Assembly: GCA_030266915.1 (NCBI GenBank)
Contig: JAJDIZ010000007.1
Span: 1 to 39,930 of the forward strand
Direction of reading: 5' to 3'
DNA from: Ruminococcaceae bacterium OttesenSCG-928-D13
GTDB taxonomy: Bacteria; Bacillota; Clostridia; Oscillospirales; Ruminococcaceae
DNA length: 39,930 bases
In this document: positions 1,475-24,712 of the stretch, in pieces
Numbering within the stretch: position 1 is the first letter of the stretch
How the letters are laid out: every line of letters starts with the position of its first letter
Notes under the pieces: model-generated
What the model was told of the DNA's origin: nothing
Seen by the model: the letters and a program-made list of their open reading frames with translations, nothing else
Databases searched by the model: none
Program-made: the position numbers and the translations under genes

Positions 1475-2500
1475 TCAGCGCTGTACACGTCCGGAACCGT
1501 CACCCTCCATCAACTTTATCACCTCGGGTACGCCCACCCGGTTGAAGTCTCCATGGATCGAGTGTTTCAGGCAACTGGCCGCCACTGCGAATTCAAGTGC
1601 ACGCAAATGGTCGTCACAGTGATTGAGGCCATAGATAAGCCCAGCGGCAAATGCATCTCCGCCACCAACCCGGTCGATGATATCGTTGATGTGGTACTGA
1701 CGACTGTGGTAAAAGCCATTGCGATCGTTCAGGCAGGCGGACCAGCCATTGCTGTCGGCGCTGTGGCTTTGCCGTAGGGTGATGGCGATCATCCGCATTT
1801 TCGGGTATATTGCCAGCACCTTGTCGGTGAGGGCACGGTAGCTCTCGGCCTCCACCTTGCCCGTGGTCGGGTCGGCGTCGGCCTGGATGCCAAGGCATTT
1901 CTGGCAGTCCTCCTCATTGCCGATGGCCACATCCACATACCCCGTCACCTCGGGCATCACCTCGGTGGCCGCCTTGCCGTATCTCCACAGTTTGGCTCGG
2001 TAGTTGAGATCGCAGGATATCGTGATCCCCTTCGACCGGGCCGCTTGCAGGCCCTCCAGTGTCAGGCCCATGGCCGAGGGGGAAATGGCCGGGGTAACGC
2101 CGGTGAGGTGCAGCCAGCCCACATCAGCCAGAAGGGCGTCCCAGTCCACTTCGCCGGGGGCAGCCTGGGCCATGGTAGAGTGTTCACGGTCATACAGCAC
2201 CCTGCTGGGCAACTGGTTGGCCCCATTTTCCAGGTAATAGACTCCCAGCCTGCCCGGCCGTCGCAGTATCTTGCCGGTGCCCACCCCAAACCTGCGCAAC
2301 TCGCGCAGCGCCTCGTCTCCCAGCGTATTATCCGGCAGCACGGTGAAGTAGTCCACTTCCATCCCATAGTTGGCGCAGCTCACGGCCACGTTGGCTTCCC
2401 CTCCGCCAAAAGTGGCCTCCAGATATGGCCCCTGCATCAGCCGTTGGTGGTCTGGGGCGCGCAGGCGCAGCATCAGCTCGCCAAAGGTGAGTAATTTCAT
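1475..2500 (-). CDS. kdgK: 2-keto-3-deoxygluconate kinase (PfkB family)
   Basis: [16 protein letters not shown]...[15 protein letters not shown]...[14 protein letters not shown]...[12 protein letters not shown]: PfkB signatures and a KdgK-like N-terminus; start at ATG 2500, overlapping the upstream gene. Confidence 0.85.
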
Positions 2501-3165
2501 GATTCCCTCCCCTCCCGGGTCCGCGCGGCTTCTCGCCACACCGATGCCGCTTGGACGGTCAGCCGGGTGATTTCGTCAAAATTCTTCTCGCGTATTGCCT
2601 TGCGGCTGCACAGCCAGCTGCCGCCCGCCGCAAAAACGAAAGGCGCCGCTGCGTATTCAGCCAGGTTGTCGCTGTCTATGCCGCCGGTGGGCACGAACCG
2701 TATCCCGCCAAAGGGCCCTGCCAGGGCGGCCATTCCTTTCAACCCACCATATACCTGGGCCGGGAAGTACTTGAGGTGGTGCAGTCCCAAGGCTATGGCC
2801 CGACTGATCTCGGTGGGGGTAACACACCCGGGCAGTACCGCCACATCGTTTTCCATGCAAAAGGCCACCACGGCCTCATCCAGCCCCGGGGAGACGATGA
2901 ACTGTGCCCCGGCTTCCACACTTTGGCGGCATTGCTCCAGGGTAAGCACTGTGCCCGCGCCCACCAGCATGCCGGGGCAGGCGTCCGCCACATTTGCAAT
3001 GGCGACAAGCCCGGCCGGGGTGCGCAAAGTGAACTCCATCACCCCCACCCCGCCGGCCAGCAACGCCTGAGCGGCAGACACGGCACTTTCCGCTTCGTCA
3101 ATCACCACGGTGGGCAGGATACCTGTCTTTCCGATGATTTCAAACACGTTACTCGTCCTGCTCAT
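2497..3165 (-). CDS. eda: Bifunctional 4-hydroxy-2-oxoglutarate / 2-keto-3-deoxy-6-phosphogluconate aldolase
   Basis: [42 protein letters not shown]...[12 protein letters not shown]...VSPGLDEAV...[10 protein letters not shown]...[11 protein letters not shown]...FVPTGGI: KDPG aldolase signatures. Confidence 0.92.
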
Positions 3166-3905
3166 ACGCCCTCCCCATTAATATCGAGATGTTCAAAGCC
3201 CACAAAGGCCTTTGGCTCGGGGTATTTCCAGGTGTTGTGCTTGCTGGTGCGCAGGCCGATGTCCACCATGGCTTGCGCCATGGCCACCGCCGGCACCACC
3301 CCGTCCAGCACCGGCACCCCGAGGCTTTCATTCAGTGCCCGCATGAAGTCCACAAACCCGGCGCAGCCCAGCAGGATGCACTCGGCACCGTCCTGCTCCA
3401 CCGCAAGCCGGCTCTGCGCTTCCAGGGCGCGCATCCCTTTTTCCCGGTCGGCAAATTCCAGCACCCCAAGGCCGGTGGCCCGCACCGAGCGGCAGAACCG
3501 CTCCTTGCCATAGGCCAGCACCAGGTCCTGGGTCACCTTCACCGAGCGGTCCAGCACCGAAACCACCGAGAAGCTCGGCGCCAGCACGGTGGCCATAGCC
3601 ATGGCCGCCTCGGCGATGCCCAGCACCGGCTTGTCGGTCAGTTCCCGCGCGGCCTGCAGGCCGGGGTCACCAAAGCAGGCGATCACATAGGCGTCGGCCC
3701 CCTCTTCCCGCTCCCCCTTCAGCACCTCGGCTATCACGCCCTGCACCGCCAGGTAGTCGTCCACATAGCACTCGATGCTGGCCGGCCCGGTGGCCGGGCT
3801 GACGCAGAGTATCTCAGTGCCTGGCCGGGCCGCCCCCACCGCCGCCTGCCAGATGCTGTCCGTCATGGCGGCGGTGGTGTTGGGGTTGATGATTTTAATC
3901 TTCAT
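3162..3905 (-). CDS. Hydantoin/allantoin racemase (Asp/Glu racemase superfamily)
   Basis: MKIKIINPNTTAAMTDSI...ACFGDPGLQAARELTDKPVLGIAEAAM...ILLGCAGFVDF: two-Cys hydantoin racemase pattern. Confidence 0.85.
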   Translation of the reverse strand: MKIKIINPNTTAAMTDSIWQAAVGAARPGTEILCVSPATGPASIECYVDDYLAVQGVIAEVLKGEREEGADAYVIACFGDPGLQAARELTDKPVLGIAEAAMAMATVLAPSFSVVSVLDRSVKVTQDLVLAYGKERFCRSVRATGLGVLEFADREKGMRALEAQSRLAVEQDGAECILLGCAGFVDFMRALNESLGVPVLDGVVPAVAMAQAMVDIGLRTSKHNTWKYPEPKAFVGFEHLDINGEGV

Positions 3906-5086
3906 TCGATGAGTCCTCCCTCGTCCAGTTTTTGCAGGGCGCGGTACAGCACGTCTAGGCCGGCAGCGATGTCCTGTGGGCGGGAATACTCCCGCGGGCT
4001 ATGGCTGATCCCGCCCACACTTGGCACAAACAGCATCCCCACCGGCAGGTGCCGGGCCATCTGAATGGCGTCATGCCCGGCCCCACTGTGGATCGGCATC
4101 GCGGGCGTTCCCGCCTCGGTGCAGGCGGCCTCAAACACCCGCCTCAGCCCGGGGGCGCACACCGTGCTGGGGTCGTTCAGTATCTGCTCAAACAGCACGT
4201 TTGGGTATTTCCCGCGCACTTCCGCCACCACCCGCTCCAGCGGTTCCGGGTCGGGGTGGCGCAGGTCCACGGTGAAGCACACCCGGCCGGGTATCACGTT
4301 GACTGCCGGCTGCTCAATCTCGAGTGTCCCCACGGTGCACACCGTCCGGCGGTCAATGGCGCGGGCGGCGTCCATCAGGTCGACAATGAGGCGGCAGGCC
4401 TTTTCCAGCGCGTCGTCCCGCAGCCACATCGGGGTGCTGCCGGCGTGGTTGGCCTGCCCATCCACCGTGACCCGCCACCGGTGGATGGCCGCGATGCCCT
4501 CCACCACCCCCAGCGGGTAGCCGGCCCCCTCCAGAATGCCTCCCTGCTCGATGTGCAGTTCAAGGTAGCACAGGTAGTCAGCCATCCGGCGCTTCGCCGC
4601 GGCAACCGCCGCCGGCCCCAGCCCATGGGCGGCCAGCTTTTCCAGCTCAACCCCGGTCACCGGGGCGCCGGTGAAGCAGCGGGAACCAAACAGCCCGCCG
4701 ATGACGTTGCCCTCCTCCTCGGTGAAGCCGATCACCTCAAAACCGTGGCGGAAAGCCCGTCCCTCCGCCCCAAGGGCGCGCAGGCACTCCACCGCGCACA
4801 GCACCCCCAGCGCCCCGTCGTACAGTCCGCCGTTCGGCACGGTGTCCAGATGGGAGCCCACCGCGATCACCGGCCCGCCGCCGCCCTCAAGCCGGCCGGT
4901 CAGGTTACCCACCGCGTCCACCGCGCAGACCAGCCCGGCATCTTCCATCAGACCACGCACATAGTCCCGCCCGGCGTCAAAGGCCGGGCTGTAGGCCATG
5001 CGGAAGGCGCCCTCCCCCGGGCCGCGGCCCAGCTCGTCCAGCCGCTTCAGCTGCTCCAGCACCCGGGCAGCGTCTGGGCGGCTCAC
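3902..5086 (-). CDS. M20-family amidohydrolase (N-carbamoyl-L-amino acid hydrolase / allantoate amidohydrolase)
   Basis: AVGSHLDTVPNGGLYDGALGV, GFTEEEGNVIGGLFGSRCFTG, ELHIEQGGILE, GAGHDAIQMARHLPVGMLFVPSVGGISHSPREYS. Confidence 0.9.
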   Translation of the reverse strand: MSRPDAARVLEQLKRLDELGRGPGEGAFRMAYSPAFDAGRDYVRGLMEDAGLVCAVDAVGNLTGRLEGGGGPVIAVGSHLDTVPNGGLYDGALGVLCAVECLRALGAEGRAFRHGFEVIGFTEEEGNVIGGLFGSRCFTGAPVTGVELEKLAAHGLGPAAVAAAKRRMADYLCYLELHIEQGGILEGAGYPLGVVEGIAAIHRWRVTVDGQANHAGSTPMWLRDDALEKACRLIVDLMDAARAIDRRTVCTVGTLEIEQPAVNVIPGRVCFTVDLRHPDPEPLERVVAEVRGKYPNVLFEQILNDPSTVCAPGLRRVFEAACTEAGTPAMPIHSGAGHDAIQMARHLPVGMLFVPSVGGISHSPREYSRPQDIAAGLDVLYRALQKLDEGGLIE

Positions 5087-6255
5087 GCTTTGGCTCCCTG
5101 TGCGGCCGCCATGTAGTCGCGGATCCTGTCCAGCCCCTGCTCCAGCTGCGCCATCGAGGTGGCGAAGGACAGCCGCACAAATCCCTCGCCCCGCGCCCCA
5201 AAGGCGGTGCCTGGCACCACCACCACCTGCTTTTTGTCCAGCAGATCATAGGCGAAGGCCTCACTGGTGAGGCCGCTGCCCCCGATGTTGACAAAGGCGT
5301 AGAAGCTGCCCTCGGGCGGCAGGCAGGAGAGGCCTGGTATCTCCGCCACCCGCTTGCAGACATAGTCCCGCCGGGCGGCATACTGCGCCACCATGCGGTG
5401 CACGGCGTCCTGGCTGCCGGTCAGGGCCTTGAGCGCCGCGTACTGGCTGGGGGTGGCTGCGGCGGAATAGACGTTCTCCTGAAATTTGGTGATGCTGCCA
5501 ATGACCGGGGCCGGCCCGGCGGCATAGCCCACCCGCCAGCCGGTCATGGCGTAGGTTTTCGAGAGGGAATCGATCACAATGCACCGCTCCCGCATGCCCG
5601 GCAGGCCGCACAGGCCGAGGAAGGGGCCGTCGGTATAGCGGATGTGCTTGTATACCTCGTCAAAAATGACGTAGAGGTCGTGCTGCTCGGCGAGGGCCGC
5701 CACCCCGGCCAGGGTGGCAGCATCCAGCAGGGCTCCGGTGGGGTTGGAGGGCGAGTTCAGGATGATGGCCCGGGTGCGGGGTGTGATGGCCGCCCGCAGG
5801 CCGTCCAGGGTGGGGCGAAAACCGTCCGATTCCAGGGCGTCCACCCGCACCGGCACCCCGCCGCTCATTATCACCTGCTGCACGTAGTTGGTCCAGGCCG
5901 GGTCAGGGATGATCACCTCGTCCCCCGGGTCGAGGATGGCCTTCAGCCCCAGATACAGCGCCCCCATGGCCCCGGCGGTGACGGTTACTTCGGTGGCGGG
6001 GTCATAGGCCACCCCGTGCTCCGCCGCAAGCTTTTGGGCCACAGCCTGCCGCAGCGGCAGGATACCGGCGTTCAGGGTGTAGCGGGTGTGCCCGTCGCGA
6101 ATTGCCGCGCAGCCCGCCTCCGCCACCTCGGGCGGAGTGGAAAAATCCGGCTCACCCAGCGAGAAGCTGATGACAGTCTCGTACTCGTGGGCCTTGTTGA
6201 AAATCTTCCGGATGTCCGATGGCAGAACCTGCCCGGCACAGCGGGATAGTTTCAT
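5083..6255 (-). CDS. PLP-dependent aminotransferase class I/II
   Basis: SFSLGEPDFSTPPEV, NSPSNPTGALL, DSLSKTYAMTGWRVGYAAGP (Schiff-base Lys); ATG at 6255 after the overlap with the upstream gene. Confidence 0.92.
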   Translation of the reverse strand: MKLSRCAGQVLPSDIRKIFNKAHEYETVISFSLGEPDFSTPPEVAEAGCAAIRDGHTRYTLNAGILPLRQAVAQKLAAEHGVAYDPATEVTVTAGAMGALYLGLKAILDPGDEVIIPDPAWTNYVQQVIMSGGVPVRVDALESDGFRPTLDGLRAAITPRTRAIILNSPSNPTGALLDAATLAGVAALAEQHDLYVIFDEVYKHIRYTDGPFLGLCGLPGMRERCIVIDSLSKTYAMTGWRVGYAAGPAPVIGSITKFQENVYSAAATPSQYAALKALTGSQDAVHRMVAQYAARRDYVCKRVAEIPGLSCLPPEGSFYAFVNIGGSGLTSEAFAYDLLDKKQVVVVPGTAFGARGEGFVRLSFATSMAQLEQGLDRIRDYMAAAQGAKA

Positions 6256-7010
6256 GTCTGTTTTCCCTCCTGTTCCAGCCGCCACTCCTGGCGTAGCTGG
6301 CCGATGATCGTGTCGAAGTGTTTCCCCATGAGCAGGGCGGCCCTGCGGGCGTCTTTTGCCAGCATGGCCTTGAAGATATCCTCGTGTTCGCCCGAGTAGC
6401 GGGTGCCGTAATCCCGGGTGACCAGGTTTTCGAAGCCATCCTCGATGCACTTCTGCTCGAATACCAACATCTTGAGCATGGCCTCGAGAAAGCGGTTGTC
6501 GGCACACTCCGCGATGCGCACATGAAAATCCAGCGCGGGGTCGATGAAGTTCGCAGATTCCCGCAGCTGGTGGCGGTAGCTGGTAATGGTCTGGCGGATG
6601 CGATCCAGCTGGTGGCGGGTGGGTTCGTTTTCTATGGCCTGCCGCACCGACAGTGTCTCCAGCGCCCGCCGCACCCGGTAGACCTGAATCAGGTCTCCGT
6701 AGTTGGCCCGCACCGAGGCCTGCAGGTTGCGGTGCAGCGCCTCGCCGGTGGACATCCGGTCAAGCTGGGCCAGGGCGCTGGCGCCGGCGCCGGTCAGTCG
6801 GCGGCCCCGGTTGGAATCCCGCTCGGTCAGCCCGACGTGGTCCAGCTGCTTCAGGGTGCGGCCCACCGTGGCGCTGCTCACCCGCAGGCCCATTTTTTCC
6901 AGTTCCAGCTGCAGGGTGGTGCAGCCCACCGGCTGATGGCTGGCCACCAGCCCCAGCAGATGGTGGCGCAACCTGCCCTGGCCGGTCTGGTGTGGCCCCG
7001 GCCCACTCAC
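6252..7010 (-). CDS. Transcriptional regulator: NrpR/RNase R-like winged helix + FCD ligand-binding domain
   Basis: N-term HHLLGLVASHQPVGCTTLQLELEKMGLRVSSATVGRTLKQLDHVGL; C-term FCD-like helices ...DPALDFHVRIAECADNRFLEAML...EHEDIFKAMLAKDARRAALLMGKHF. GTG start overlaps the hydantoinase stop. Confidence 0.8.
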   Translation of the reverse strand: MSGPGPHQTGQGRLRHHLLGLVASHQPVGCTTLQLELEKMGLRVSSATVGRTLKQLDHVGLTERDSNRGRRLTGAGASALAQLDRMSTGEALHRNLQASVRANYGDLIQVYRVRRALETLSVRQAIENEPTRHQLDRIRQTITSYRHQLRESANFIDPALDFHVRIAECADNRFLEAMLKMLVFEQKCIEDGFENLVTRDYGTRYSGEHEDIFKAMLAKDARRAALLMGKHFDTIIGQLRQEWRLEQEGKQT

Positions 7011-8419
7011 AGCCCGGTGTAGCAGGCGCCATAGGGGCGGGTGCGCAGGAAGCGCCCCTGGCCGTAGCTGCCCACAAACCTAGCCTGCTCCACCACCACC
7101 TTGCCCCGCAGCAGCACCGTTTCCACCCGGCCCAGCTGCTCGAAGCCCTCGTAGATGTTGAAATCGGCGCCGTTGGGGTTGTCTGCCCAGCGCACCGCGC
7201 CGCGCCACGCACGGTCGTACAGCACGATGTCGGCGTCAAAGCCGGGGGCGATGTCCCCCTTGCCGGGGTAGAGGCCGCACACCTTGGCCGGGTTGGTGGC
7301 GGTGAACCGCACGAAATCCACCCGGGACAGCTTCCCCTTCTCCACGCCGTGGCTCCACAGCATCGGAATTCGGTCCGGTGCGCCCGGAGCGCCGTTGGGG
7401 ATGCGGTCAAACCGGTCCAGCCCCTGTCGCTTGATGTCCATGCCGATGCCCACGTGATCTGAGGCGATGGTGTGCAGGGTGCCGTCTCGCAGGGCCTGCC
7501 ACAGGTGCTCCTGCTCACACTTGTCCCGCAGGGCAGGTGAGAGCACATAACGGGAAGCCACCTCGAAGTCCGGGTTGGCCAGGTAGCTCTTGTCCAAAAA
7601 CAGGTAGTGGGCGCAGGTTTCCCCCATCACCGGCTGCAGGCGGCCACGGGCCTCGGCGATGACATCGCACACCGCCTTGCTGGTGTTGTGCACGATGCAT
7701 AGGGGCGTGCCGCCGGCCTGCTGGGCCAAATAGAGCGCCCGCTGGGCGGCCTCTCCTTCGCAGAAGCTGGGGCGGGTCTCGGCGTGGTATTTCGGAGCCA
7801 CCTCTCCCCTCGCGATGCATTCCCGCTGCATCTCGTCGATGACATCCCCGTTTTCGGTGTGAACAAACACCGTGATGCCGTGTTTTTTGCTCTCCTGCAT
7901 CACCCGGAACATCACCCCGTCATCCACGTGCAACGGGGAGTTTTTGTAGGCCATGAAGCACTTGATGGAGTGGATGCCCATCTCGCTGAGCCTGGCAATG
8001 TCCCGGTACAGGCCGCTGTTGTCGTCGGTCACATAAGTGATAAAGCCGTGCAGGGCATAGTCCACACACACCTTATCCTTCGCCCGCACGTCGATGCGGT
8101 ACTGCGCCGATTCGATCAGCCCCTTGCCCGGATCCTGGGGGGCATAATCCACCACGGTGGTGGTGCCGCCCACCAGGGCGCTGTCGGAGGTCTCGTAGCC
8201 GGCGGTGTCCTGGTCGCCGGTGTTGCACAGGGCGGAGTAATGGGTGTGCTGGTCCACCCCGCCCGGGAACACCACCTTGCCGGCGGCGTCGATGACAGTA
8301 TCCGCCGTGTTGCCCAGGTCGGCGCCCACCGCCGCGATCACCTCATCCTCGATCAGGATGTCCCCTCGGAACTCCGCCGACGAGGTGATGATCTCCCCAT
8401 TTTTAATTAATGTCGTCAT
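7007..8419 (-). CDS. Dihydropyrimidinase / D-hydantoinase
   Basis: PGGVDQHTHYS, SIKCFMAYKNSPL (carboxylated Lys), VHTENGD, IASDHVGI: cyclic amidohydrolase metal-site motifs. Confidence 0.9.
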   Translation of the reverse strand: MTTLIKNGEIITSSAEFRGDILIEDEVIAAVGADLGNTADTVIDAAGKVVFPGGVDQHTHYSALCNTGDQDTAGYETSDSALVGGTTTVVDYAPQDPGKGLIESAQYRIDVRAKDKVCVDYALHGFITYVTDDNSGLYRDIARLSEMGIHSIKCFMAYKNSPLHVDDGVMFRVMQESKKHGITVFVHTENGDVIDEMQRECIARGEVAPKYHAETRPSFCEGEAAQRALYLAQQAGGTPLCIVHNTSKAVCDVIAEARGRLQPVMGETCAHYLFLDKSYLANPDFEVASRYVLSPALRDKCEQEHLWQALRDGTLHTIASDHVGIGMDIKRQGLDRFDRIPNGAPGAPDRIPMLWSHGVEKGKLSRVDFVRFTATNPAKVCGLYPGKGDIAPGFDADIVLYDRAWRGAVRWADNPNGADFNIYEGFEQLGRVETVLLRGKVVVEQARFVGSYGQGRFLRTRPYGACYTGL

Positions 8420-8532
8420 TGTTTACGACCACCTTTCCAAAGCTGTCGGCATATCCATCACTCATCATTTGTGAGCGATGCCTTTCTGCGCAATTTGTAT
8501 CACCAAATAGTATTTGCGTCAAATTATACAAA

Positions 8533-8548
8533 ATAAAAATATTTTTAC
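8533..8548. promoter_or_regulatory. Palindromic element ATAAAAATATTTTTAC, copy 1 (candidate regulator binding site)
   Basis: Exact 16-nt match to 8673-8688; contains the perfect 14-bp palindrome TAAAAATATTTTTA. Confidence 0.6.
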
Positions 8549-8672
8549 CCGTGCTTTTGTAAGCTTTGTGCGGATCAGTCAAAGGGCTATCCTATGATCT
8601 TTTTGGCGTTCGTCCTTTTCGACACATTTTGACAAATGGGAAAGAATTTTTTATCAATACTCATGAATAGCG

Positions 8673-8688
8673 ATAAAAATATTTTTAC
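8673..8688. promoter_or_regulatory. Palindromic element ATAAAAATATTTTTAC, copy 2 (candidate UAS about 50 bp upstream of the -24 element)
   Basis: Exact 16-nt repeat of 8533-8548; flanked by further dyad AGCG...CGCT. Confidence 0.6.
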
Positions 8689-8739
8689 TACGCTCTTTTT
8701 GATTTTTGTCACATAGCGTATCATCGTTATTTTACCCTT

Positions 8740-8755
8740 TGGCACAGTGGTTGCT
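8740..8755 (+). promoter_or_regulatory. Sigma-54 (-24/-12) promoter TGGCAC-AGTGG-TTGCT
   Basis: Full match to consensus TGGCAC-N5-TTGCW with GG-N10-GC spacing, in the divergent intergenic region, 65 bp upstream of the ATG at 8821; a sigma-54 activator is encoded at the end of the cluster. Confidence 0.9.
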
Positions 8756-8820
8756 ATATTCCCTGATGAGGACGTAACCCTGGCAACAACCATCAATCAA
8801 GTGGAGAGCAGGTATTTTTT

Positions 8821-10245
8821 ATGAGCAGAATAGACACCATCATCAAGGCGCCCCATATGTATACCATGGCCGGAGACGGACTGGGATATATGGACTCCGC
8901 GGCTGTGGCCATCGACAGCGGGCGCATTCTGGCGGTTGGACCGGTGGCAGATATCGAGGCGGCCTACCAACCGGAGCAGACACTGGAAATGGAGCACCAC
9001 CTGCTGCTGCCCGGTTTTGTGGACGGGCACATGCACACCTCGTGCAATATCCTGCGGGGCCTTGCGCAGGACACCGACAACTGGATGATGAACGGGCTGC
9101 AGCCCTTCGACAACGCCGCCACCCAGGAAGAGCGGGACGCCGGCAGCCGGCTGGCCATCATCGAGGCCATCCAGGCCGGCACCACCACCTTGGGCGACTA
9201 CGACCACGACATGGACGCCGTCTGCGCCTTCATTGCCAAGGTGGGCGCCCGGGGCAACATCGCCCAAACCGTCCGCTCGGCCAAGCACCAGGTGTACAAG
9301 CCGGGCGAGCTGTATGTGTTCGACACCGACCAGGGGGAACAGTCCCTGGCGCGGAACATCGCCCTTTACAAGAAATGGCACGGCCATGACGGCGGACGCA
9401 TCCGGGTGCTGTTCGGCCCTCAGGGCGCCGACTTCATGGACACCACCTTACTGCAACGTTGCAAGGACGAGGCCAAAAAGCGGGGCACCCGGGTGCACAT
9501 ACACCTCCAGCAGGGCAGCCGGGAGCTGGCCCAGATGGAGATGCGCTACGGCATGCGCACCGTGGCCTTCCTGGAGCAGACGCACTATCTGGACGAGAAC
9601 TTCATCGTGGTGCACCTCACCAGCTGTGAGGAAGACGAGGTGCGCGCCGTGGCCAAAACCGGGGCCGGCATGGTGGTGTGTCCCGGTTCCATTGCCATCA
9701 TCGACGGGCTGGTGTGCCCCTCTATGGCCTTCCAGCAGGCGGGCGGCGCCTGCGGCCTCGGCTCGGACCAGGCCCCCGGCAACAACTGCCACAACATCAT
9801 CAACGAGATGAAAAACGTAGCGCTTTTCAACAAGATTATGCGGGCCGACCCCGAGGTGATGCCCGCCTGGGCCGCCCTGCGCATGGCCACCATCGAAGGC
9901 GCCCGTGCCATCGGCCTGGGCGGGGAGATCGGCTCGCTGGAGGCCGGCAAAAAGGCCGACCTGATCGCGGTGGACCTGAATTACCCGTCCATGCAGCCGG
10001 TGTTCACCCACCCGATGCGCAACATGGTGCCCAACCTGGTGTACAGCGCCCGGGGCCGGGAGGTGGCGCTCTCGATGGTGGACGGCCGCGTCATCATGCG
10101 CGACGGCGTGGTGCTTGGGGCCGATGCGGCGGACTGCCTGCGGGCGGTGGCCGCCTACCCCGACGGCATCGGCGCCCGCGCCGAAAAGGAGTTTTTCGCT
10201 ATCAATGGCACCAACGCCCAATACATGCGTAACGACCAACTGTGA
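8821..10245 (+). CDS. Amidohydrolase, AtzA/TrzN/SAH-deaminase-like
   Basis: LLPGFVDGHMHTSCNILRGLAQD, RVHIHLQQGSREL, VVHLTSCEEDEV, GLGSDQAPGNNCHN, GSLEAGKKADLIAVD. Confidence 0.88.
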   Translation: MSRIDTIIKAPHMYTMAGDGLGYMDSAAVAIDSGRILAVGPVADIEAAYQPEQTLEMEHHLLLPGFVDGHMHTSCNILRGLAQDTDNWMMNGLQPFDNAATQEERDAGSRLAIIEAIQAGTTTLGDYDHDMDAVCAFIAKVGARGNIAQTVRSAKHQVYKPGELYVFDTDQGEQSLARNIALYKKWHGHDGGRIRVLFGPQGADFMDTTLLQRCKDEAKKRGTRVHIHLQQGSRELAQMEMRYGMRTVAFLEQTHYLDENFIVVHLTSCEEDEVRAVAKTGAGMVVCPGSIAIIDGLVCPSMAFQQAGGACGLGSDQAPGNNCHNIINEMKNVALFNKIMRADPEVMPAWAALRMATIEGARAIGLGGEIGSLEAGKKADLIAVDLNYPSMQPVFTHPMRNMVPNLVYSARGREVALSMVDGRVIMRDGVVLGADAADCLRAVAAYPDGIGARAEKEFFAINGTNAQYMRNDQL

Positions 10246-10283
10246 CGGTAATCTAAGACAGCTTGAGCGAAGGAGCGAAGGGC

Positions 10284-11222
10284 ATGAAAAGGTACCTGGT
10301 AAAACGGCTGATTCAGCTTCCCATCATTCTGGCCGGGGTGTTGATCTGTGTGTTCCTGATCATCCAGCTTACCCCGGGCGACCCGGCCGCCACCCTGGCC
10401 GGCCCCAAGGCGGGCCCCGAGGAGGTGGAGGCCGTACGGCAGCAATTGGGGCTTGACCGCCCCGTTCTGGAACAGTTTTTCAGCTATGTTGGCAACGTGT
10501 TCCGGGGCAACTTTGGCCGCAGCTACACCCACAAAACCGACATCGGCTCCAGCATTGGCACGGCTCTGGTCAACACCGTCTACCTGATGCTGTTTGCCCG
10601 CATCTGGTCCATTCTGGCGGCCATTCCACTGGGCATCTACGCGGCGCTGCACCACAACACCTGGGTGGACAAGCTCTGCATGGGCACCTCGCTGCTGGGC
10701 ATCTCCATCCCCCAGTTCTGGCTGGGGCTCATCCTGATGAAGCTGTTTTGCTTCGACCTGGGCTGGCTGCCCTTCTCGGGCATGGGCAGCTCCTTCTGGT
10801 CCGCCGACGGGCTGCTGCACGTCATTCTGCCGGCCTTTATGCTGGGGCTGCCCCAGCTGGCCTCCATCGCCCGGCTCACCCGCTCTGAAATGCTGGAGGT
10901 GATGCGGCAGGACTACATTAAAACAGCCCGCGCCAAAGGGGTGAAGCAGCGGATGGTGGTGTACAAGCACGCCCTTAAAAACGCCGCCCTGCCGCTCATC
11001 ACCGTCATCGGCACCCAAACCGGCTACATGCTCAGCGGCTCGGTGGTCATCGAGAACATCTTCGCCTGGCCGGGCCTCGGGCGCTACTCCATCCAGGCCA
11101 TCATCGGCAGCGACTATCCCGCCATCCAGGCCAGCGTACTGCTTTTTGCGGTGATGTTCCTGGTGGTAAACCTGATCGTTGACCTCACCTACAGCCTGGT
11201 TGATCCCAGGATCAACTACTGA
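10284..11222 (+). CDS. Dipeptide/oligopeptide ABC transporter permease (DppB/OppB-like)
   Basis: MKRYLVKRLIQLPIILAGVLICVFLIIQLTPGDPA...RLTRSEMLEVMRQDYIKTARAKGV...FAWPGLGRYSIQAI. Confidence 0.92.
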   Translation: MKRYLVKRLIQLPIILAGVLICVFLIIQLTPGDPAATLAGPKAGPEEVEAVRQQLGLDRPVLEQFFSYVGNVFRGNFGRSYTHKTDIGSSIGTALVNTVYLMLFARIWSILAAIPLGIYAALHHNTWVDKLCMGTSLLGISIPQFWLGLILMKLFCFDLGWLPFSGMGSSFWSADGLLHVILPAFMLGLPQLASIARLTRSEMLEVMRQDYIKTARAKGVKQRMVVYKHALKNAALPLITVIGTQTGYMLSGSVVIENIFAWPGLGRYSIQAIIGSDYPAIQASVLLFAVMFLVVNLIVDLTYSLVDPRINY

Positions 11223-11239: not shown

Positions 11240-12112
11240 ATGAATGAAAACACAGCCATCCCCGCCGAGCCCCAAAAGGCACGCCTGCGGGAGGACAGCA
11301 TCCCCTACAAAATCCTGCACAACAAAAGCATCATCGCGGGGGCCATCATCCTGCTCATCATGCTGGTGCTGGGCATCCTGGCCCCGGTGCTGACCCCCTA
11401 CGGCCCCGCCGAAACCAGCACCGCAAGCAAGCTAATGGGGCCCTCCGGCGAGCACCTGTTCGGCACCGACGAGTTCGGGCGGGACATCCTCAGCCGCATG
11501 CTGTACGGCATCCGCATCACCATCCCCTACAGCATCTACTCCCTTATTCTGGCCATCGTCACCGGGGTGCCCATCGGGCTGCTGGCCGGATACTTCAAGG
11601 GGCTGGACAACCCCCTGATGCGCCTGATGGACATCCTGATGGCCTTCCCCGGCATGCTGCTGGCCATCGTCATCGTGGCCACCCTGGGGCCGGGTCTGGG
11701 CAACGTCACCATCGCGGTGGGGCTGGGCACCATGCCAGCCTACGCGCGCCTCGTGCGCGGCTCGGTGCTCTCGCTGAAGGAACAGCCCTTTGTCGAGGCC
11801 TCCATCTCGGCCGGCGCTAAGAGCGGCCGCATCATCCTCAGCCACATTTTGCCCAACCTGATTTCCACCCTGGTGGTGTACTCCATGCTGGAGATGGCCT
11901 GGGTCATCATGTCCATCTCCACCCTCAGCTTCCTGGGCATCGGCGCCCAGGCGCCCATCCCCGAGTGGGGCGCCCTTGTGAGCAGCGGCAAAAACTACAT
12001 CCTCTCCGCCCCTCACATCTCCACTTTCCCGATGATCTTCATCTTCGCCACAGTCATGGCCTTCAACCTGCTGGGCGACGGCCTGCGCGACGTTTTGGAC
12101 CCGCGCCTATAA
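11240..12112 (+). CDS. Dipeptide/oligopeptide ABC transporter permease (DppC/OppC-like)
   Basis: LFGTDEFGRDILSRMLYGIRITI...LMDILMAFPGMLLAIVIVATLGPG...YARLVRGSVLSLKEQPFVEA...EWGALVSSGKNYI. Confidence 0.92.
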   Translation: MNENTAIPAEPQKARLREDSIPYKILHNKSIIAGAIILLIMLVLGILAPVLTPYGPAETSTASKLMGPSGEHLFGTDEFGRDILSRMLYGIRITIPYSIYSLILAIVTGVPIGLLAGYFKGLDNPLMRLMDILMAFPGMLLAIVIVATLGPGLGNVTIAVGLGTMPAYARLVRGSVLSLKEQPFVEASISAGAKSGRIILSHILPNLISTLVVYSMLEMAWVIMSISTLSFLGIGAQAPIPEWGALVSSGKNYILSAPHISTFPMIFIFATVMAFNLLGDGLRDVLDPRL

Positions 12113-12141
12113 CACCGCTGCCGCGGGAAAGGAGAACAGTT

Positions 12142-13128
12142 ATGCAAGAGGCACTATTGGACATAAAGAACCTGTCGGTTCAGTTTTTCACCCGAAAAAA
12201 CGACGGCCCCGCTGTGGCCGACGTCACCTTCCGGATAAACCGGGGCGAGGTGCTGGGCGTGGTGGGTGAGAGCGGCAGCGGCAAGAGCGTTTCGGCGCTG
12301 TCGGTGATGCGCCTCATCCAGGAGCCCGGCCGCATCACCGGCGGGCAGATCACCTTCGACGGCGAGAGCCTGCTGGACAAGAGCGAGGACGAGATGACCA
12401 AGATCCGCGGCAACAAGATCTCGATGATCTTCCAGGAGCCGATGACCTCGTTCAACCCGGTCTACACCATTGGCGGGCAGATTATGGAAGCCATCATCCT
12501 GCACCAGAACAAGACAAAGACCGAGGCGCGGGAGCTGGCCATCAGCCTGATGCGGGAGGTGGGCATTGCCTCCCCCGAAAAGCGGATGGACGACTACCCC
12601 CACCAGATGAGCGGCGGCATGCTGCAGCGCTGCATGATCGCCATGGCGCTGAGCTGCAACCCCGAGCTGCTGATTGCCGACGAGCCCACCACCGCGCTGG
12701 ACGTGACGATCCAGGCGCAGATACTGGACCTGATACGCAAGCTGCAAATCGAGCGCAACACCGCCATCATGATGATTACCCACGACCTCGGTGTCATTGC
12801 CGAGCTGGCCAAGTACGTGGTGGTGATGTACCTGGGGCGGGTGGTGGAGGAGGCGCCGGTGCGGGAGCTGTTCAAAAAGCCGCTGCACCCCTACACCGAG
12901 GGCCTGATGCGCTCGCTGCCGGTCATCGGGCAAAACACCGGCAAGCTCTATATGATCCCGGCTTCCAACGTGGAGCCGCGGGACATCAAGGGCTGCCGCT
13001 TCTGCCCGCGCTGCGCCTACGCCTTTGACCGCTGCAAAACCGAGGAACCGCCGTTGGCCCGGATGGGCGACGGGCGCAGCGTGCGCTGCTGGCTGCGCCT
13101 GGATGAGGAAGGAGGCGGACAGGCATGA
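12142..13128 (+). CDS. ABC transporter ATP-binding protein (DppD/OppD-like)
   Basis: Walker A GESGSGKS, signature MSGGMLQR, Walker [16 protein letters not shown]-terminal Cys-rich oligopeptide motif ([14 protein letters not shown]). Confidence 0.93.
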
Positions 13129-14126
13129 GTGAAAACACGTTGGTACAGGTGAAAAACCTGAAGAAATGGTTCCCTGTCAAGGACAAGCTGTTCGGCCGGG
13201 CCGACACCTTCGTCAAGGCGGTGGACGATGTTTCCTTCGACGTCTATGACGGCGAGGTGCTGGGCCTGGTGGGTGAAAGCGGCTGCGGAAAAACCACCAT
13301 CAGCCGCACCATGCTGGGGCTCACCAAGGCAACCGGGGGCAGCATCATCTTCGACGGCGAGGACCTGCTGAGCATGAAAAAAGAAGCGCTGCGCAAAAAA
13401 CGCGCCAAGCTGCAAATGGTGTTCCAGGATCCCTACTCCTCCCTCAGCCCCCGCAAACGAGTGGGCAAAACCATTGCCGAGCCGATGGAGATACACAACA
13501 TCGGCACCCGGCAGGATCGGGCCAAGCGGGTGGAAGACCTGCTGGAAACCGTGGGGCTGAACCGGGACTATTCCCACCGCTACCCCCACGAGTTTTCGGG
13601 CGGGCAGCGCCAGCGCATCGGCATTGCCCGGGTGCTGGCGGCCAACCCCCAGTTCATCATCTGTGACGAGCCGGTCAGCGCGCTGGACGTCTCGATCCGC
13701 TCCCAGATCCTCAACCTGCTGATGGACCTCAAGCACGAGTTCGGCCTCACCATGCTGTTCATCTCCCACGACTTAAGCGTGGTGGAGTACCTGTGTGACC
13801 GCATCATCGTGATGTACCTGGGCAAGGTGATGGAGATCGCCAAAAAGGACGACCTGTACAAAAGCCCGGCCCATCCCTACACCGTGGCGCTGATGTCGGC
13901 CATCCCCCAGCCGGACCCCGACGCCAAAAAGCACCGCATCATCCTGGAGGGCGACATGCCCAGCCCGATCAACCGGCCCGAGGGCTGCCTTTTCCGCACC
14001 CGGTGCCCGATGGCCCAGGAGGCGTGCGCGCAGATGCCCGAGCTGCGGGAGGTTGCCCCCGGCCACTGCGCGGCCTGCCACTTCGCCGAGAAGCTGGCCG
14101 CGGGTGATGTCTCCGTCACACAGTAG
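13125..14126 (+). CDS. ABC transporter ATP-binding protein (DppF/OppF-like)
   Basis: Walker A GESGCGKT, FSGGQRQRIGIARVL, IICDEPVSALDVS; ATGA overlap with the upstream gene. Confidence 0.93.
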   Translation: MSENTLVQVKNLKKWFPVKDKLFGRADTFVKAVDDVSFDVYDGEVLGLVGESGCGKTTISRTMLGLTKATGGSIIFDGEDLLSMKKEALRKKRAKLQMVFQDPYSSLSPRKRVGKTIAEPMEIHNIGTRQDRAKRVEDLLETVGLNRDYSHRYPHEFSGGQRQRIGIARVLAANPQFIICDEPVSALDVSIRSQILNLLMDLKHEFGLTMLFISHDLSVVEYLCDRIIVMYLGKVMEIAKKDDLYKSPAHPYTVALMSAIPQPDPDAKKHRIILEGDMPSPINRPEGCLFRTRCPMAQEACAQMPELREVAPGHCAACHFAEKLAAGDVSVTQ

Positions 14127-14158: not shown

Positions 14159-15613
14159 ATGGCCCCAAAGACCACGCTGTACAAGGCCAGAAACCTCATC
14201 GTCTGGCAAGGCGGTGAGCACCGGCAGCTGGAGAACGGCGTGCTGGCGGTGAAAGGCGACAAGATCGACGCCGTGCTGCCCGCCGTTCCCCCGGGCGCCG
14301 AGGTGATCGACCTGGGCAACGCGGCCATCCTGCCCGGCTTCGTCAACCTGCATTGCCACCCCTCCGAGGTGTTCTCGTCCAAGAGCTTTCGGGACGATAT
14401 CGGCAATCCGTATTTCTACAACTCCATCATGTACGATGACTTTCCGGTCATCATGGGCGAGGCCGCCGGCGAGATTCAGGCCAAGCTGAACCTGGCGGAG
14501 ATCATCAAAAGCGGGGTCACCAGCGCCCTGATCTTCGGCGGGCCCAACTCCCGCCTAGAGGCGGAGCTGGCCGGCAAGCTGGGCCTGCGCGCCTGGGTGG
14601 GCTGGGGCATCCGCGCTGGTGACAACCAGGAGGCGGTTCCCATCTGGGATTCCCCCGACGGCCACAACCTGAATTTCACCTACAACGAGCCTGAGGGCTT
14701 CCACCGGCTGGAGGAGGCTGCCCATTTCGTGCGCGAATACCAGGGCGCCTTCAGCGGCCGGATAAGCACCCTTTTGGCCCCCACCCAGACCATGACCTGC
14801 ACCCCGCCCATGCTGGTGATGACCCGCAAACTGGCAGACGACCTCGGGGTGGGCATCACCATCCACGGCTCGGAGGACTTCGTCGAGTTCGAGATGTCGG
14901 TACGGATGCACGGCAAAACCCCGGTGCGGATGATGTTCGAAACCGGTGTGCTGGGCGAGGACACCATCATCGCCCACTGCTGCTGCATCGAGGGCCACAG
15001 CCAGGTTTACCGCGGCGGCAACGACCTTGAACTGCTGGGCGCCAGCCGGGCCACCGTGGCCCACTGCCCCTGGGTGCTGATGCGCATCGGCGACACGCTG
15101 GAATCCTTCAGGCGCTACCTGGACGCCGGGGTGAACATCGGCATCGGCACCGACACCTATCCCTCGGATTTTATCCAGGAGATGCGCTACGCCGCCGCCA
15201 TGGGCAAGCTGGTGGACCGGGATAACGCCGCCGTCACCGCCCGGGACGTTTTCACCGCCGGCACGGCGGACGGGGCCAAGGCCCTGGGCCGCAGGGACCT
15301 GGGCCGGCTGGAGAAGGGCGCCAAGGCCGACTTTGTGGTGGTGGATCAGAACAATATCCAGATGGCCCCGGTGCGGGACGTGGTGAAAAACCTGATCTAC
15401 TGTGGCAGCCGCCACGTGGTGAGCCAGGTGTATGTGGACGGCGCCTGCGTGATGCAGGACGGCCAGGTGCCCGGGGTGGATGAGGCTGACCTGTGCGGCC
15501 AATTGCAGGAACTGGCCGAGCACGCCTGGAAAAACGCCCCGGCACACAACCGCGAAAGGCGGAGCCTGGACGAGATTTCCCCGCTGGCCTGCCCGCGGGC
15601 CGAAATTGTTTGA
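14159..15613 (+). CDS. Amidohydrolase (cytosine deaminase/chlorohydrolase-related), tandem paralog 1
   Basis: LPGFVNLHCHPSEVFSSKSF, APTQTMTCTPPML, ITIHGSEDFVEFE, IIAHCCCIEGHS, GIGTDTYPSDFIQEMR; GGAAAGGAGG RBS. Confidence 0.87.
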   Translation: MAPKTTLYKARNLIVWQGGEHRQLENGVLAVKGDKIDAVLPAVPPGAEVIDLGNAAILPGFVNLHCHPSEVFSSKSFRDDIGNPYFYNSIMYDDFPVIMGEAAGEIQAKLNLAEIIKSGVTSALIFGGPNSRLEAELAGKLGLRAWVGWGIRAGDNQEAVPIWDSPDGHNLNFTYNEPEGFHRLEEAAHFVREYQGAFSGRISTLLAPTQTMTCTPPMLVMTRKLADDLGVGITIHGSEDFVEFEMSVRMHGKTPVRMMFETGVLGEDTIIAHCCCIEGHSQVYRGGNDLELLGASRATVAHCPWVLMRIGDTLESFRRYLDAGVNIGIGTDTYPSDFIQEMRYAAAMGKLVDRDNAAVTARDVFTAGTADGAKALGRRDLGRLEKGAKADFVVVDQNNIQMAPVRDVVKNLIYCGSRHVVSQVYVDGACVMQDGQVPGVDEADLCGQLQELAEHAWKNAPAHNRERRSLDEISPLACPRAEIV

Positions 15614-15652: not shown

Positions 15653-17104
15653 ATGGCAGTCATGTCAATGGAGACCGTTTTCTACAAGGCGAAGTACCTC
15701 ATTGTTTGGGATGAGGGACAGCACAAGGTACTGTACGACGGCTACCTCGGCGTCAAGGGCGACACGGTGGAGGGCGTCTACCGTACCCTGCCCGAGGGCG
15801 CCAGCTGCGAGGACCTTGGCGAGGCTGTTCTGTTCCCCGGCTTCGTCAACCTGCACACCCACCCCTCCGAGCTGTTCAGCATCAAAAGCTTTGTGGAGGA
15901 CAACGCGAACCCCAACTTCTACGAATCCTCCCTGATCGACAAGCCCATCCCCCACATGGGGCGGCGCGGGGCCGAATTGCAGACCCTGATCAACCTGGCC
16001 GAGCTGATCAAGAGCGGGGTCACCAGCGCCCTCATCTATGGCGGGCCCTACTCCCGCCTTGAGGCGGACACCGCCGGCAAGCTGGGAATGCGCGCCTGGG
16101 TGGGCGCGGGCATCCGCGCCGGCGACGCGATGGAGGACACCTGGATATGGCACTCCCCCGACGGCCACAGCGTGGAGTACACCTTCGACGAGGAGGCCGG
16201 CAAGGAGCGCCTCAAGGAGGCCGAGGTCCTTTTCAAGGATTACGACGGCGCCTATGACGGGCGCATCCACATCATGATGGGCCCCACCCAAACCATGACC
16301 TGCACCCCCTGGATGCTGGAGGAGACCCGCCGGCTGGCCGACAAGCTGGGCTGCGGCATCACCATCCACGCCTGCGAGGACATGACCGAGTACGAGTCCG
16401 CCGTGCGGCTGCGGGGCAAAACCCCGGTGCGGCTGATGGCCGACACCGGCATCCTCGGTGAGGACTGCGTCATTGCCCACTGCGTCTACATCAACGGCCA
16501 CAGCCGCGCCTGGATGCAGTATGACGACGACCTGGAGCTGCTGGCCAGGAGCAAGTCCACTGTGGCCCACAGCCCCACCCCCTTCGCCCGGGTGGGCGAG
16601 CGGCTAGAGTCCTACACCAAGTACAAAAACGCCGGCATCAACCTGGCCTTCGGCACCGACACCTTCCCCTCCGACTTCATCCAGGAGATGCGGCTGGCCG
16701 CCTTCATGGGCAAGATGACCGAGCACACCTCCACCGCCCTGAACGCCGGCGACATCTTCAACACCGCCACCATCGGCGGCGCGAAAGGCCTTGGCCGCAA
16801 GGACCTTGGCCGGCTGGAAAAGGGCGCCAAGGCCGACTTTGTGGTGGTCGGGCTGGACAACATCGAGATGACCCCCGCCCGGGACGTTGTCAAAACCCTG
16901 GTGTACACCGCCACCCGCCACAGCGTGCAGGACGTCTATGTGGCCGGCAAAAAGATCGTCAGCAAGGGAATGGTGGAGGGCTTTGACGAGCGGGCCGCCT
17001 GCGCCGAGCTGCGGCAGATTGCCCACGACGCCTACGCCGATGTGCGGGACGTGCAGGGCCACGGCATGGACGAAGTTTACAAGATGACCTTCCCCAAATA
17101 CTGA
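15653..17104 (+). CDS. Amidohydrolase, tandem paralog 2
   Basis: FPGFVNLHTHPSELFSIKSF, GPTQTMTCTPWML, ITIHACEDMTEYE, VIAHCVYINGHS, FGTDTFPSDFIQEMR; alternative start at 15662. Confidence 0.87.
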   Translation: MAVMSMETVFYKAKYLIVWDEGQHKVLYDGYLGVKGDTVEGVYRTLPEGASCEDLGEAVLFPGFVNLHTHPSELFSIKSFVEDNANPNFYESSLIDKPIPHMGRRGAELQTLINLAELIKSGVTSALIYGGPYSRLEADTAGKLGMRAWVGAGIRAGDAMEDTWIWHSPDGHSVEYTFDEEAGKERLKEAEVLFKDYDGAYDGRIHIMMGPTQTMTCTPWMLEETRRLADKLGCGITIHACEDMTEYESAVRLRGKTPVRLMADTGILGEDCVIAHCVYINGHSRAWMQYDDDLELLARSKSTVAHSPTPFARVGERLESYTKYKNAGINLAFGTDTFPSDFIQEMRLAAFMGKMTEHTSTALNAGDIFNTATIGGAKGLGRKDLGRLEKGAKADFVVVGLDNIEMTPARDVVKTLVYTATRHSVQDVYVAGKKIVSKGMVEGFDERAACAELRQIAHDAYADVRDVQGHGMDEVYKMTFPKY

Positions 17105-17133: not shown

Positions 17134-18588
17134 ATGAGCGAAGTGAAGTTCTACAAGGCGCGATACATCATCATCTGGCACGAAAACCAGCACAAGACAC
17201 TGGAAAACGGCTACCTGGGCGTCCGGGATGACAAGATAGAGGGCTTCTACACCCGGCTGCCCGAGGGCGCCCTCTGCGAGGACCTGGGCGACGTGGCCAT
17301 CACCCCCGGCTTCATCAACCTGCACACCCATCCCTCCGAGGTGTTCTGCCTGAAAAGCTACCGGGAGGACATCGGCAACCCCAACTTCTACGAGGGCACC
17401 CTGTATGACTACGCCCTGGTGCTGCCCTTCACCCAACGCAGCGGCTATTTGCAGGCCAAGCTGAACATCGCCGAGATACTCAAGAGCGGCTGCACCACCC
17501 AGCTGATCTACGGCGGCGGCTACTCCCGGGTAGAGGCCGAAATCGCCGGCGAGATGGGCGCCCGGGCCTATGTGGGCGCCGCCATCCGCGCCGGCGACCC
17601 GATGGAGGAGCGCAGCATCTGGGAATCCCCCGACGGGCACTCCATCGTCTACAACTTCAACGAGGAGGCCGGCATGGAGCGCCTGGCCGAGGCGGTTGAC
17701 CTGGTGAAGGAGATGAAGGGCGCCTATGACGGCCGCATCAACGCCATCCTGGCCCCCACCCAAACCATGACATGCACCCCCAAAATGCTCAAGGAGACCC
17801 GCAAATGGGCCGACAAGCTGGGCGGGCCCATCACCATCCACGGCTCCGAGGCCCCCACCGAGTTCGAGTCCTGCATCCGGATGTTCGGCCAGACGCCGGT
17901 GGAGTTCATGAACGAAAACGGCATGTTGGGCGAGGACACCATCATCGCCCACTGCCTGTACATCGCCGGACACTCCCACATCTACATGGCCGGCAACCGG
18001 GATCTGAAGCTGCTGGGCGACACCAAATCCACCGTGGCCCATTGCCCCTGGGCGCTGGCCCGCGCCGGCAACACCCTGCAAAGCTTTGCCCGATATAAAA
18101 AGGCCGGGGTGAACCTGGGCATCGGCACCGACACCTTCTCCTCCGACTTCATCCAGGAGATGCGCTTCGCCGCCTCCCTGGGCAAGGTGGTGGACCGCAG
18201 CACCTTTGCCGTGGGCGCAAAGGACATCTTCGACGCCGCCACCATCGGCGGGGCCAAGGCCCTGGACCGCAAAGACCTGGGCCGCCTTGAGGCGGGCGCC
18301 AAGGCGGACTTCGTTGTCTTCAAGCTGGACAGCATCGAGATGGCGCCGGTGCGCGACGTGGTGAAGAACATCATCTACAGCGCCACCCGCCACTCGGTGC
18401 GGGACGTCTACGTGGACGGCGCCTGCGTGGTGAAGGACGGCGCGATTGCCGGCTTTGACGAGAGCGCGCTGGCCAAGGAGCTGCAGGCCCTCACCGAGGA
18501 GGTGTGGCGCAACACCGGCAAGTATGACCGCCTGGGCCGCGGCGTGGACGAGCTCTCCCCGCTGGCCGCCCCCACATACACCGGCTGA
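17134..18588 (+). CDS. Amidohydrolase, tandem paralog 3
   Basis: TPGFINLHTHPSEVFCLKSY, APTQTMTCTPKML, ITIHGSEAPTEFE, IIAHCLYIAGHS, GIGTDTFSSDFIQEMR. Confidence 0.87.
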   Translation: MSEVKFYKARYIIIWHENQHKTLENGYLGVRDDKIEGFYTRLPEGALCEDLGDVAITPGFINLHTHPSEVFCLKSYREDIGNPNFYEGTLYDYALVLPFTQRSGYLQAKLNIAEILKSGCTTQLIYGGGYSRVEAEIAGEMGARAYVGAAIRAGDPMEERSIWESPDGHSIVYNFNEEAGMERLAEAVDLVKEMKGAYDGRINAILAPTQTMTCTPKMLKETRKWADKLGGPITIHGSEAPTEFESCIRMFGQTPVEFMNENGMLGEDTIIAHCLYIAGHSHIYMAGNRDLKLLGDTKSTVAHCPWALARAGNTLQSFARYKKAGVNLGIGTDTFSSDFIQEMRFAASLGKVVDRSTFAVGAKDIFDAATIGGAKALDRKDLGRLEAGAKADFVVFKLDSIEMAPVRDVVKNIIYSATRHSVRDVYVDGACVVKDGAIAGFDESALAKELQALTEEVWRNTGKYDRLGRGVDELSPLAAPTYTG

Positions 18589-18688
18589 ACCGCCAGCCAT
18601 GTCTTTTTTACAACAAGTTGTTCGGCAGACGCATCGCAAGGAGTGTTTGCACCTGATACAAACCCAGGAAAAGAAAGGAATGGAGAAA

Positions 18689-20463: not shown

Positions 20464-20491
20464 TTGATTTTATCAGGGCCGGTGGTATAAT
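20464..20491 (+). promoter_or_regulatory. Sigma-70/A-type promoter TTGATT-N16-TATAAT for the sigma-54 activator gene
   Basis: Hexamers at 20464-20469 and 20486-20491, 38 bp upstream of the ATG. Confidence 0.55.
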
Positions 20492-21904: not shown

Positions 21905-21943
21905 CAGACAAAAATGGCACCCGGCGGGTGCCATTTTTGTCTG
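21905..21943. terminator. Bidirectional intrinsic terminator
   Basis: Perfect 18-bp stem CAGACAAAAATGGCACCC-GGC-GGGTGCCATTTTTGTCTG between convergent genes. Confidence 0.85.
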
Positions 21944-24523: not shown

Positions 24524-24536
24524 TTCGCCCTCCATT

Positions 24537-24700
24537 TGATGAGTTATTATTCATCAATTTCCATCCACTTCGTATAACTCATTATAGCAGGTCAAAGCTT
24601 ATTTTCAAACACTATATAGCATATTTTCGCATATATATTACTTGACTTTTCTTGTGCGATACATCTATAATATTAATGACTATTCATCATCATTGATCAG
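24537..24700. promoter_or_regulatory. Divergent regulatory region between allantoinase and FCD regulator genes
   Basis: TGATGA-N8-TCATCA (24537-24556); ATGAGTTAT (24539-24547)/ATAACTCAT (24574-24582) inverted repeat; TATTCATCA repeated at 24548-24556 and 24681-24689; TTGACT-N18-TATAAT (24642-24671). Confidence 0.65.
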
Positions 24701-24712
24701 TTGAGGATACTT

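Follow-up and report, generated by a model that had tools for sequence, protein, structure and literature searches.

Organization of the locus

The window analysed here, a stretch of 39,930 nucleotides from Ruminococcaceae bacterium OttesenSCG-928-D13, belongs to an assembly of 2.37 Mb that is 67.6% complete. Two gene clusters diverge from an intergenic stretch of 401 bp, which runs from the start of a hydantoinase gene (8419, minus strand) to that of the amidohydrolase gene AH1 (8821, plus strand) and holds the element under study. The plus-strand cluster encodes the amidohydrolases AH1 to AH4, an Opp-type transporter with its solute-binding protein and, at its far end, a sigma-54 activator (Table 1). 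The genes from AH1 through the activator are separated by short gaps. On the plus strand, the stretch from AH1 to the binding-protein gene showed no sigma-A-like promoter; a single weak terminator-like hairpin is located at 18583-18598. The NCBIfam matches of AH1 belong to the TRZ/ATZ family and fall below the equivalog cut-offs; its relatives in the PDB are deaminases and chlorohydrolases, and known members of this amidohydrolase group deaminate or dechlorinate heterocycles.

Table 1. Coordinates of the features in and around the intergenic stretch (strand "." for features placed on neither strand)
Feature	Position	Strand	Basis
Divergent operon	1475..8419	-	Pfam, NCBIfam; gene order in relatives
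UAS1, proposed activator site ATAAAAATATTTTTAC	8533..8548	.	Centre ~200 bp upstream of -24 GG
UAS2, proposed activator site ATAAAAATATTTTTAC	8673..8688	.	Centre ~60 bp upstream of -24 GG; repeat and genome-wide search
Putative sigma-54 promoter element TGGCACAGTGGTTGCT	8740..8755	+	Direct sequence; perfect match; equivalents before homologous operons
AH1, TRZ/ATZ-type amidohydrolase, 474 aa, first operon gene	8821..10245	+	PF01979, PF07969
OppB-type ABC permease	10263..11222	+	PF00528 + PF19300
OppC-type ABC permease	11240..12112	+	PF00528 + PF12911
OppD-type ATPase	11965..13128 (ORF limits; true start probably near 12100)	+	PF00005 + PF08352
OppF-type ATPase	13125..14126	+	PF00005 + PF08352
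AH2 amidohydrolase	14159..15613	+	PF01979; best NCBIfam NF004801, below cut-off
AH3 amidohydrolase	15653..17104	+	PF01979
AH4 amidohydrolase	17134..18588	+	PF01979
Extracellular solute-binding protein, family 5, of Opp transporter	18680..20386	+	PF00496
Candidate sigma-A promoter of activator gene, TTGATT-16-TATAAT	20464..20491	+	10/12 consensus positions; consensus match only
Sigma-54 activator (bEBP), PAS - AAA+ - Fis-type HTH	20529..21899	+	PF00158 E 1.9e-60; PAS_4; HTH_8; tree
Perfect hairpin GACAAAAATGGCACCCGGCGGGTGCCATTTTTGTC after activator	21907..21941	.	Direct sequence

The divergent operon encodes a D-hydantoinase, an FCD/GntR regulator, an aminotransferase, an M20 carbamoylase, a hydantoin racemase, a KDPG aldolase and a PfkB kinase, with the D-hydantoinase (TIGR02033), the carbamoylase (TIGR01879) and the KDPG aldolase (TIGR01182) scoring over the NCBIfam cut-offs. 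A separate group of genes at 22005-26768, adjoining the sigma-54 island, encodes a BNR-repeat protein, an allantoinase-like enzyme, an FCD regulator and an M20 carbamoylase.

The activator has the architecture of an enhancer-binding protein (bEBP): its AAA+ domain scores 203.8 bits against PF00158 and carries the Walker motifs GETGTGKE and GGTFFLDE, flanked by an N-terminal PAS_4 sensor domain (PF08448) and a C-terminal HTH_8 domain (PF02954). Its loop reads GSYTGA, a variant of GAFTGA that is also found in the orthologs of loci L041 and L074. The single-position variants GSFTGA and GAYTGA are reported to be functional (PMC6615313); the double variant is not named in that paper. The gene probably has its own sigma-A promoter and need not depend on the sigma-54 promoter for transcription. 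The hairpin that follows it is likely a bidirectional terminator.

The -24/-12 element and its genomic setting

Positions 8740-8755 read TGGCACAGTGGTTGCT on the plus strand, with the GG at 8741-8742 and the GC at 8753-8754, and hence 10 bp apart, inside TGGCAC-N5-TTGC. The complete match to the -24/-12 consensus with correct GG-N10-GC spacing, as claimed in the initial annotation, is borne out by the direct sequence at 0 mismatches. Neither strand of the window holds another such match to TGGCAYRNNNNTTGCW, and the AH1 start codon lies 65 bp downstream. A perfect TGGCACRNNNNTTGCW arose in 1 of 5000 dinucleotide shuffles of the intergenic stretch, and shuffles of the whole window gave a mean of 0.05 perfect matches.

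Genome-wide, the motif count is not significant. The 2.37 Mb assembly holds five perfect TGGCACNNNNNTTGCW sites, near the roughly three expected by chance as scaled from shuffles. The motif by itself is therefore no proof; we rejected motif counting alone as evidence, and the argument rests on where the sites lie. In fact, three of the five are intergenic, face a nearby start codon and are situated at the three activator loci of the assembly, while one of the others falls within a gene (contig C58) and one faces no gene (C220).

The assembly also encodes the cognate sigma factor. An RpoN gene, cut by the contig end, is present on C224 (Sigma54_DBD, E 1.2e-48), and its translated C-terminal domain contains, as read by eye, the RpoN box-like sequence SRRVIVKYRE. 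RpoN is patchy among relatives: of 61 genomes searched, 8 gave strong matches. Strong Sigma54_activat matches are confined to three proteins in the assembly, each beside a perfect and correctly placed -24/-12 site. The window activator had been described as the only one in the window, encoded at the downstream end of the cluster; this holds for the window, but the genome contains two others. One, on C160 (L023, 1-4791), is a receiver-type activator accompanied by a histidine kinase with a solute-binding sensor domain, and its perfect site follows the activator gene and precedes a gene for a solute-binding protein. The other, on C155 (L022), is followed by a perfect site before an NhaC/ArcD-like transporter gene. 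We note that the stretch 827-6016 of L022 has two -24/-12 sites near the activator, one before an FMN reductase/SDR pair and the other before the NhaC/ArcD-like transporter gene, which is followed by an amidohydrolase gene.

The same genome has a second AH1-like gene (51%) on C167 (L032, 9359-12140), followed by an allantoinase/hydantoinase-like gene, in a stretch that holds neither a -24/-12 site nor a palindrome of the kind described below. The same-genus genomes G001-G004 gave no AH1 match at the threshold used.

Paired palindromes and co-conservation with the activator

A repeat search reveals two identical palindromes, ATAAAAATATTTTTAC, upstream of the element, which we propose as activator sites (UAS1 and UAS2). 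Across the assembly, RTMAAAATATTTTKAY at up to one mismatch matches at these two places only. The backward-read control pattern likewise gave two matches, and the weight therefore falls on both true matches sharing one 320-bp stretch; two palindromes arose in 0 of 20000 shuffles of the intergenic stretch. Such palindromes are common in AT-rich relatives, where counting them stays at background (Geosporobacter, 23 vs 21 for the control pattern) and was not used. Activator sites of sigma-54 promoters are usually paired and palindromic, as the two proposed here are, and these are kept with the activator's clade, as follows.

A scan of genome contigs yielded 37 loci encoding AH1 relatives. In five of these (L041 from Geosporobacter, L043, L045, L046 and L047), AH1 is preceded by an ortholog of the window activator (53-66% identity), and a -24/-12 site lies between the two genes; in L041, and equally in L045 and L046 (duplicates L127 and L137), a gene for an Na+/H+-antiporter-family transporter stands between activator and AH1. 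Two or three GTMAAAAWWTTTTKAC palindromes occur within 300 bp upstream of the -24/-12 site in each of the five. Palindrome and site were thus found together in 5/5 AH1 loci with an activator ortholog vs 0/32 without one (Fisher p 2.3e-6), the absence being less certain in a few of the 32 that span less than 2 kb upstream of AH1. The UAS consensus had been drawn from some of these counted loci, and orthologs fetched after the consensus was fixed were therefore used as a fairer test. In this later set, 14 of 18 orthologs have a UAS at up to two mismatches ahead of a -24/-12 site, vs 3 of 27 paralogs from activator loci of three genomes (p 1.6e-5); at up to one mismatch, the UAS is found in six orthologs and no paralog. 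Paralog loci have other palindromes, such as GTGCAAATATATTTGCAC in L087. One ortholog of 58% (L122) has no -24/-12 site in the locus stretch examined.

The tree places the window activator together with those of L041, L043, L045 and L047 (100/98 support), next to the L074-L076 activators. Most activators of this sister kind adjoin genes homologous to one protein of L074, which we take, naming it by eye, to resemble arginine deiminase/DDAH. Related activators of about 50% identity (L074, L125, L126, L128-L133, L135, L136, L138), many with GTAAAA..TTTTAC-like UAS, adjoin such arginine deiminase/DDAH-like genes. This suggests a role in handling modified arginines for the wider activator group.

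An equivalent -24/-12 site precedes the homologous operon in G1261, G1219, G1099, G1150 and the five loci above. Almost the entire island is present in G1261 and G1219, with genes 45-72% identical to those of the window: KDPG aldolase, PfkB kinase, aminotransferase, carbamoylase, hydantoin racemase, hydantoinase and the activator, followed by the UAS, the -24/-12 site, OppB, C, D and F, AH2, AH3, AH4, the binding protein and AH1. At the score used, each has exactly one -24/-12 site, before oppB, and the UAS 16-mer of G1261 (L123) is identical to that of the window, its first base lying 90 bp ahead of the homologous promoter. The order in the window differs, with AH1 at the front, the hydantoinase module divergent and the activator at the far end. 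By this comparison of gene order, the window is a rearranged version of the G1261/G1219 island, and the transporter/amidohydrolase operon has kept the UAS and the predicted promoter at its head. In G1099 and G1150, the island has an antiporter-family transporter instead of Opp. We regard the persistence of the predicted promoter unit through rearrangement as the strongest single argument for the circuit.

These data bear on three other readings of the locus. The first is that the operon has an ordinary sigma-A promoter and matches -24/-12 by coincidence. The -12 part of the element is indeed overlapped by a sigma-A-like extended -10, TGCTATATT, a TTTACC-18-TATATT candidate with a preceding TG agrees with 9 of 12 sigma-A consensus positions, and chance perfect -24/-12 matches do arise in a genome of such size. 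However, relatives keep GG-N10-GC while the bases after it form no consistent -10 (L041 TTCTAATT, L047 AATAGCC, L123 AAAATATA), and the palindromic UAS and the activator travel with the site, which makes this reading exceedingly unlikely. We consider it extremely unlikely, too, that the promoter is sigma-54-dependent but served by a different enhancer-binding protein, the neighbouring activator having another target. The assembly does encode two other activators and, at 67.6% completeness, its genome may encode more; yet those two have their own perfect sites adjoining, the palindrome tracks the clade of the window activator rather than its paralogs, and in relatives the activator gene directly precedes palindrome and promoter.

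The third reading assigns the palindromes to the divergent hydantoinase operon, or to a GntR/FCD repressor, rather than to the sigma-54 promoter. UAS1 lies 5 bp upstream of a minus-strand TATAAT that faces the divergent operon (8523-8548) and has no good -35, and that operon encodes an FCD regulator. Against this, the palindrome precedes a sigma-54 promoter in G1261, G1219, L041, L045 and L047, where no divergent operon is present at that place, and UAS2 is far from the divergent start; we therefore hold this assignment to be very unlikely. No sigma-54 site faces the divergent operon, since the minus strand from 8420 to 8740 lacks GG-N10-GC. Given the position of UAS1 near the divergent TATAAT, the activator might also affect that operon, which is conjecture; UAS1 serving both operons would fit the sigma-54 circuit that we favour.

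In sum, we conclude that 8740-8755 is very probably the sigma-54 promoter of AH1-OppBCDF-AH2-AH3-AH4-SBP, switched by the activator at 20529-21899 via the two UAS. The initial proposals that the element controls the transporter/amidohydrolase operon and that the activator forms a dedicated circuit with it gain support from the RpoN gene, the paired UAS, and the co-conservation in Clostridia of activator, UAS, -24/-12 site and amidohydrolase/transporter genes despite changed gene order. From these observations we infer the following course. RpoN holoenzyme would bind the -24/-12 element and stay there as a closed complex. The PAS-AAA+-Fis activator, presumably made from its own sigma-A promoter, would bind UAS1 (8533-8548) and UAS2 (8673-8688), with its PAS domain sensing a small molecule. 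DNA looping and ATP hydrolysis by the activator would then open the complex, and transcription is predicted, from the spacing to -24/-12, to start near 8766. A relative of the operon's substrate is the probable inducer; plausible candidates are an arginine derivative, cyclic or modified, and the ornithine released from such a compound.

Known systems, likely substrate and meaning

A layout of this kind is usual, since 23 of 30 -24/-12 promoters in C. difficile adjoin an activator gene (PMC7438776). A close frame of reference is the set of bEBP/sigma-54 regulons of Clostridiales described by Nie et al. 2019 (PMC6615313). These resemble the window in having a PAS-AAA+-Fis activator beside the one operon that it controls, UAS that mostly lie 100-250 bp ahead of a TTGGCATNNNNNTTGCT-type promoter, targets in amino-acid catabolism and tolerance of GAFTGA variants. 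The window differs in that UAS2, at about 60 bp from -24, is closer than the usual range, and the groups in Table 1 of that paper include no Opp/amidohydrolase or antiporter/amidohydrolase target operon.

Two known activators invite comparison. PrdR, the proline reductase activator, has the same domain order and is the best NCBIfam model for the window activator, but the score of 349.7 bits against an equivalog cut-off of 795 indicates that the protein is not PrdR, and the PrdR-type UAS given in PMC6615313 is TGT-N10-12-ACA vs GTAAAA-N4-TTTTAC in the window. OrdR of C. difficile and Geosporobacter (ord-ortBA-oraSEF-orr-nhaC) is likewise a sigma-54 activator, one linked to the catabolism of ornithine and to a transporter of the NhaC family; in C. 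difficile, a -24/-12 promoter ahead of ord has been mapped (PMC7438776). In a comparison by gene content, OrdR loci carry ord/ort/ora genes, whereas none of these is among the annotated genes of the window, and the window and orthologous loci hold amidohydrolase operons instead. The next-best Geosporobacter activator (L081, 44%) was considered as OrdR and rejected, its neighbour being the lysine-fermentation enzyme Kdd, not Ord.

The neighbouring metabolic genes offer a clue to the substrate. In relatives, the same metabolic genes as in the divergent operon adjoin this circuit. Hydantoinase, hydantoin racemase and carbamoylase repeatedly accompany AH1; the window, G1261, G1219, G1150 and several Oscillospiraceae loci add the aminotransferase, KDPG aldolase and KDG-kinase-like PfkB protein to this set. 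The enzymes of the divergent operon look like a route by which a hydantoin becomes 2-keto-3-deoxygluconate and pyruvate. By general chemistry, the hydroimidazolone of arginine and 3-deoxyglucosone would give ornithine and 5-(trihydroxybutyl)hydantoin; hydantoinase and carbamoylase, followed by transamination, would convert the latter to 2-keto-3-deoxygluconate, which serves the last two enzymes, PfkB kinase and KDPG aldolase, as substrate. We tentatively suggest that the substrates could be hydroimidazolones, which are cyclic derivatives of arginine, and that the divergent operon perhaps breaks them down to 2-keto-3-deoxygluconate; creatinine and the methylglyoxal-derived hydroimidazolone are alternatives.

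Taken further, the locus would represent a new activator group that has a UAS code of its own, GTAAAA-N4-TTTTAC, and governs how arginine-derived advanced glycation products are taken up and opened; gut Clostridia would then possess a complete anaerobic pathway for the 3-deoxyglucosone hydroimidazolone, an extension that we regard as possible but doubtful. In such a pathway, the amidohydrolases would release ornithine from hydroimidazolones, and the neighbouring hydantoinase, racemase, carbamoylase, aminotransferase, KDG kinase and KDPG aldolase would convert the hydantoin derived from 3-deoxyglucosone first to 2-keto-3-deoxygluconate and from there to pyruvate and glyceraldehyde-3-phosphate. 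No description of a bacterial hydroimidazolone or creatinine route like this was found in the open-access literature by title and abstract, which is weak evidence of novelty.

The kind of system, a dedicated bEBP/sigma-54 circuit, is already known. The activator group, its UAS and the island under its presumed control look undescribed in the open-access literature examined, including Table 1 of PMC6615313, although the group may overlap with one that is unnamed there. Promoter, two putative operator sites and activator are open to direct testing, and this apparent regulatory unit has been kept while the gene cluster was reshuffled, recurring in distant relatives with different gene order. An uncharacterised catabolic island would thereby be tied to one inducible switch, so that identifying the inducer would give a lead to the substrate. 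Should this prove to be a glycated arginine, the island would account for the use of a major class of dietary glycation products by gut Clostridia.
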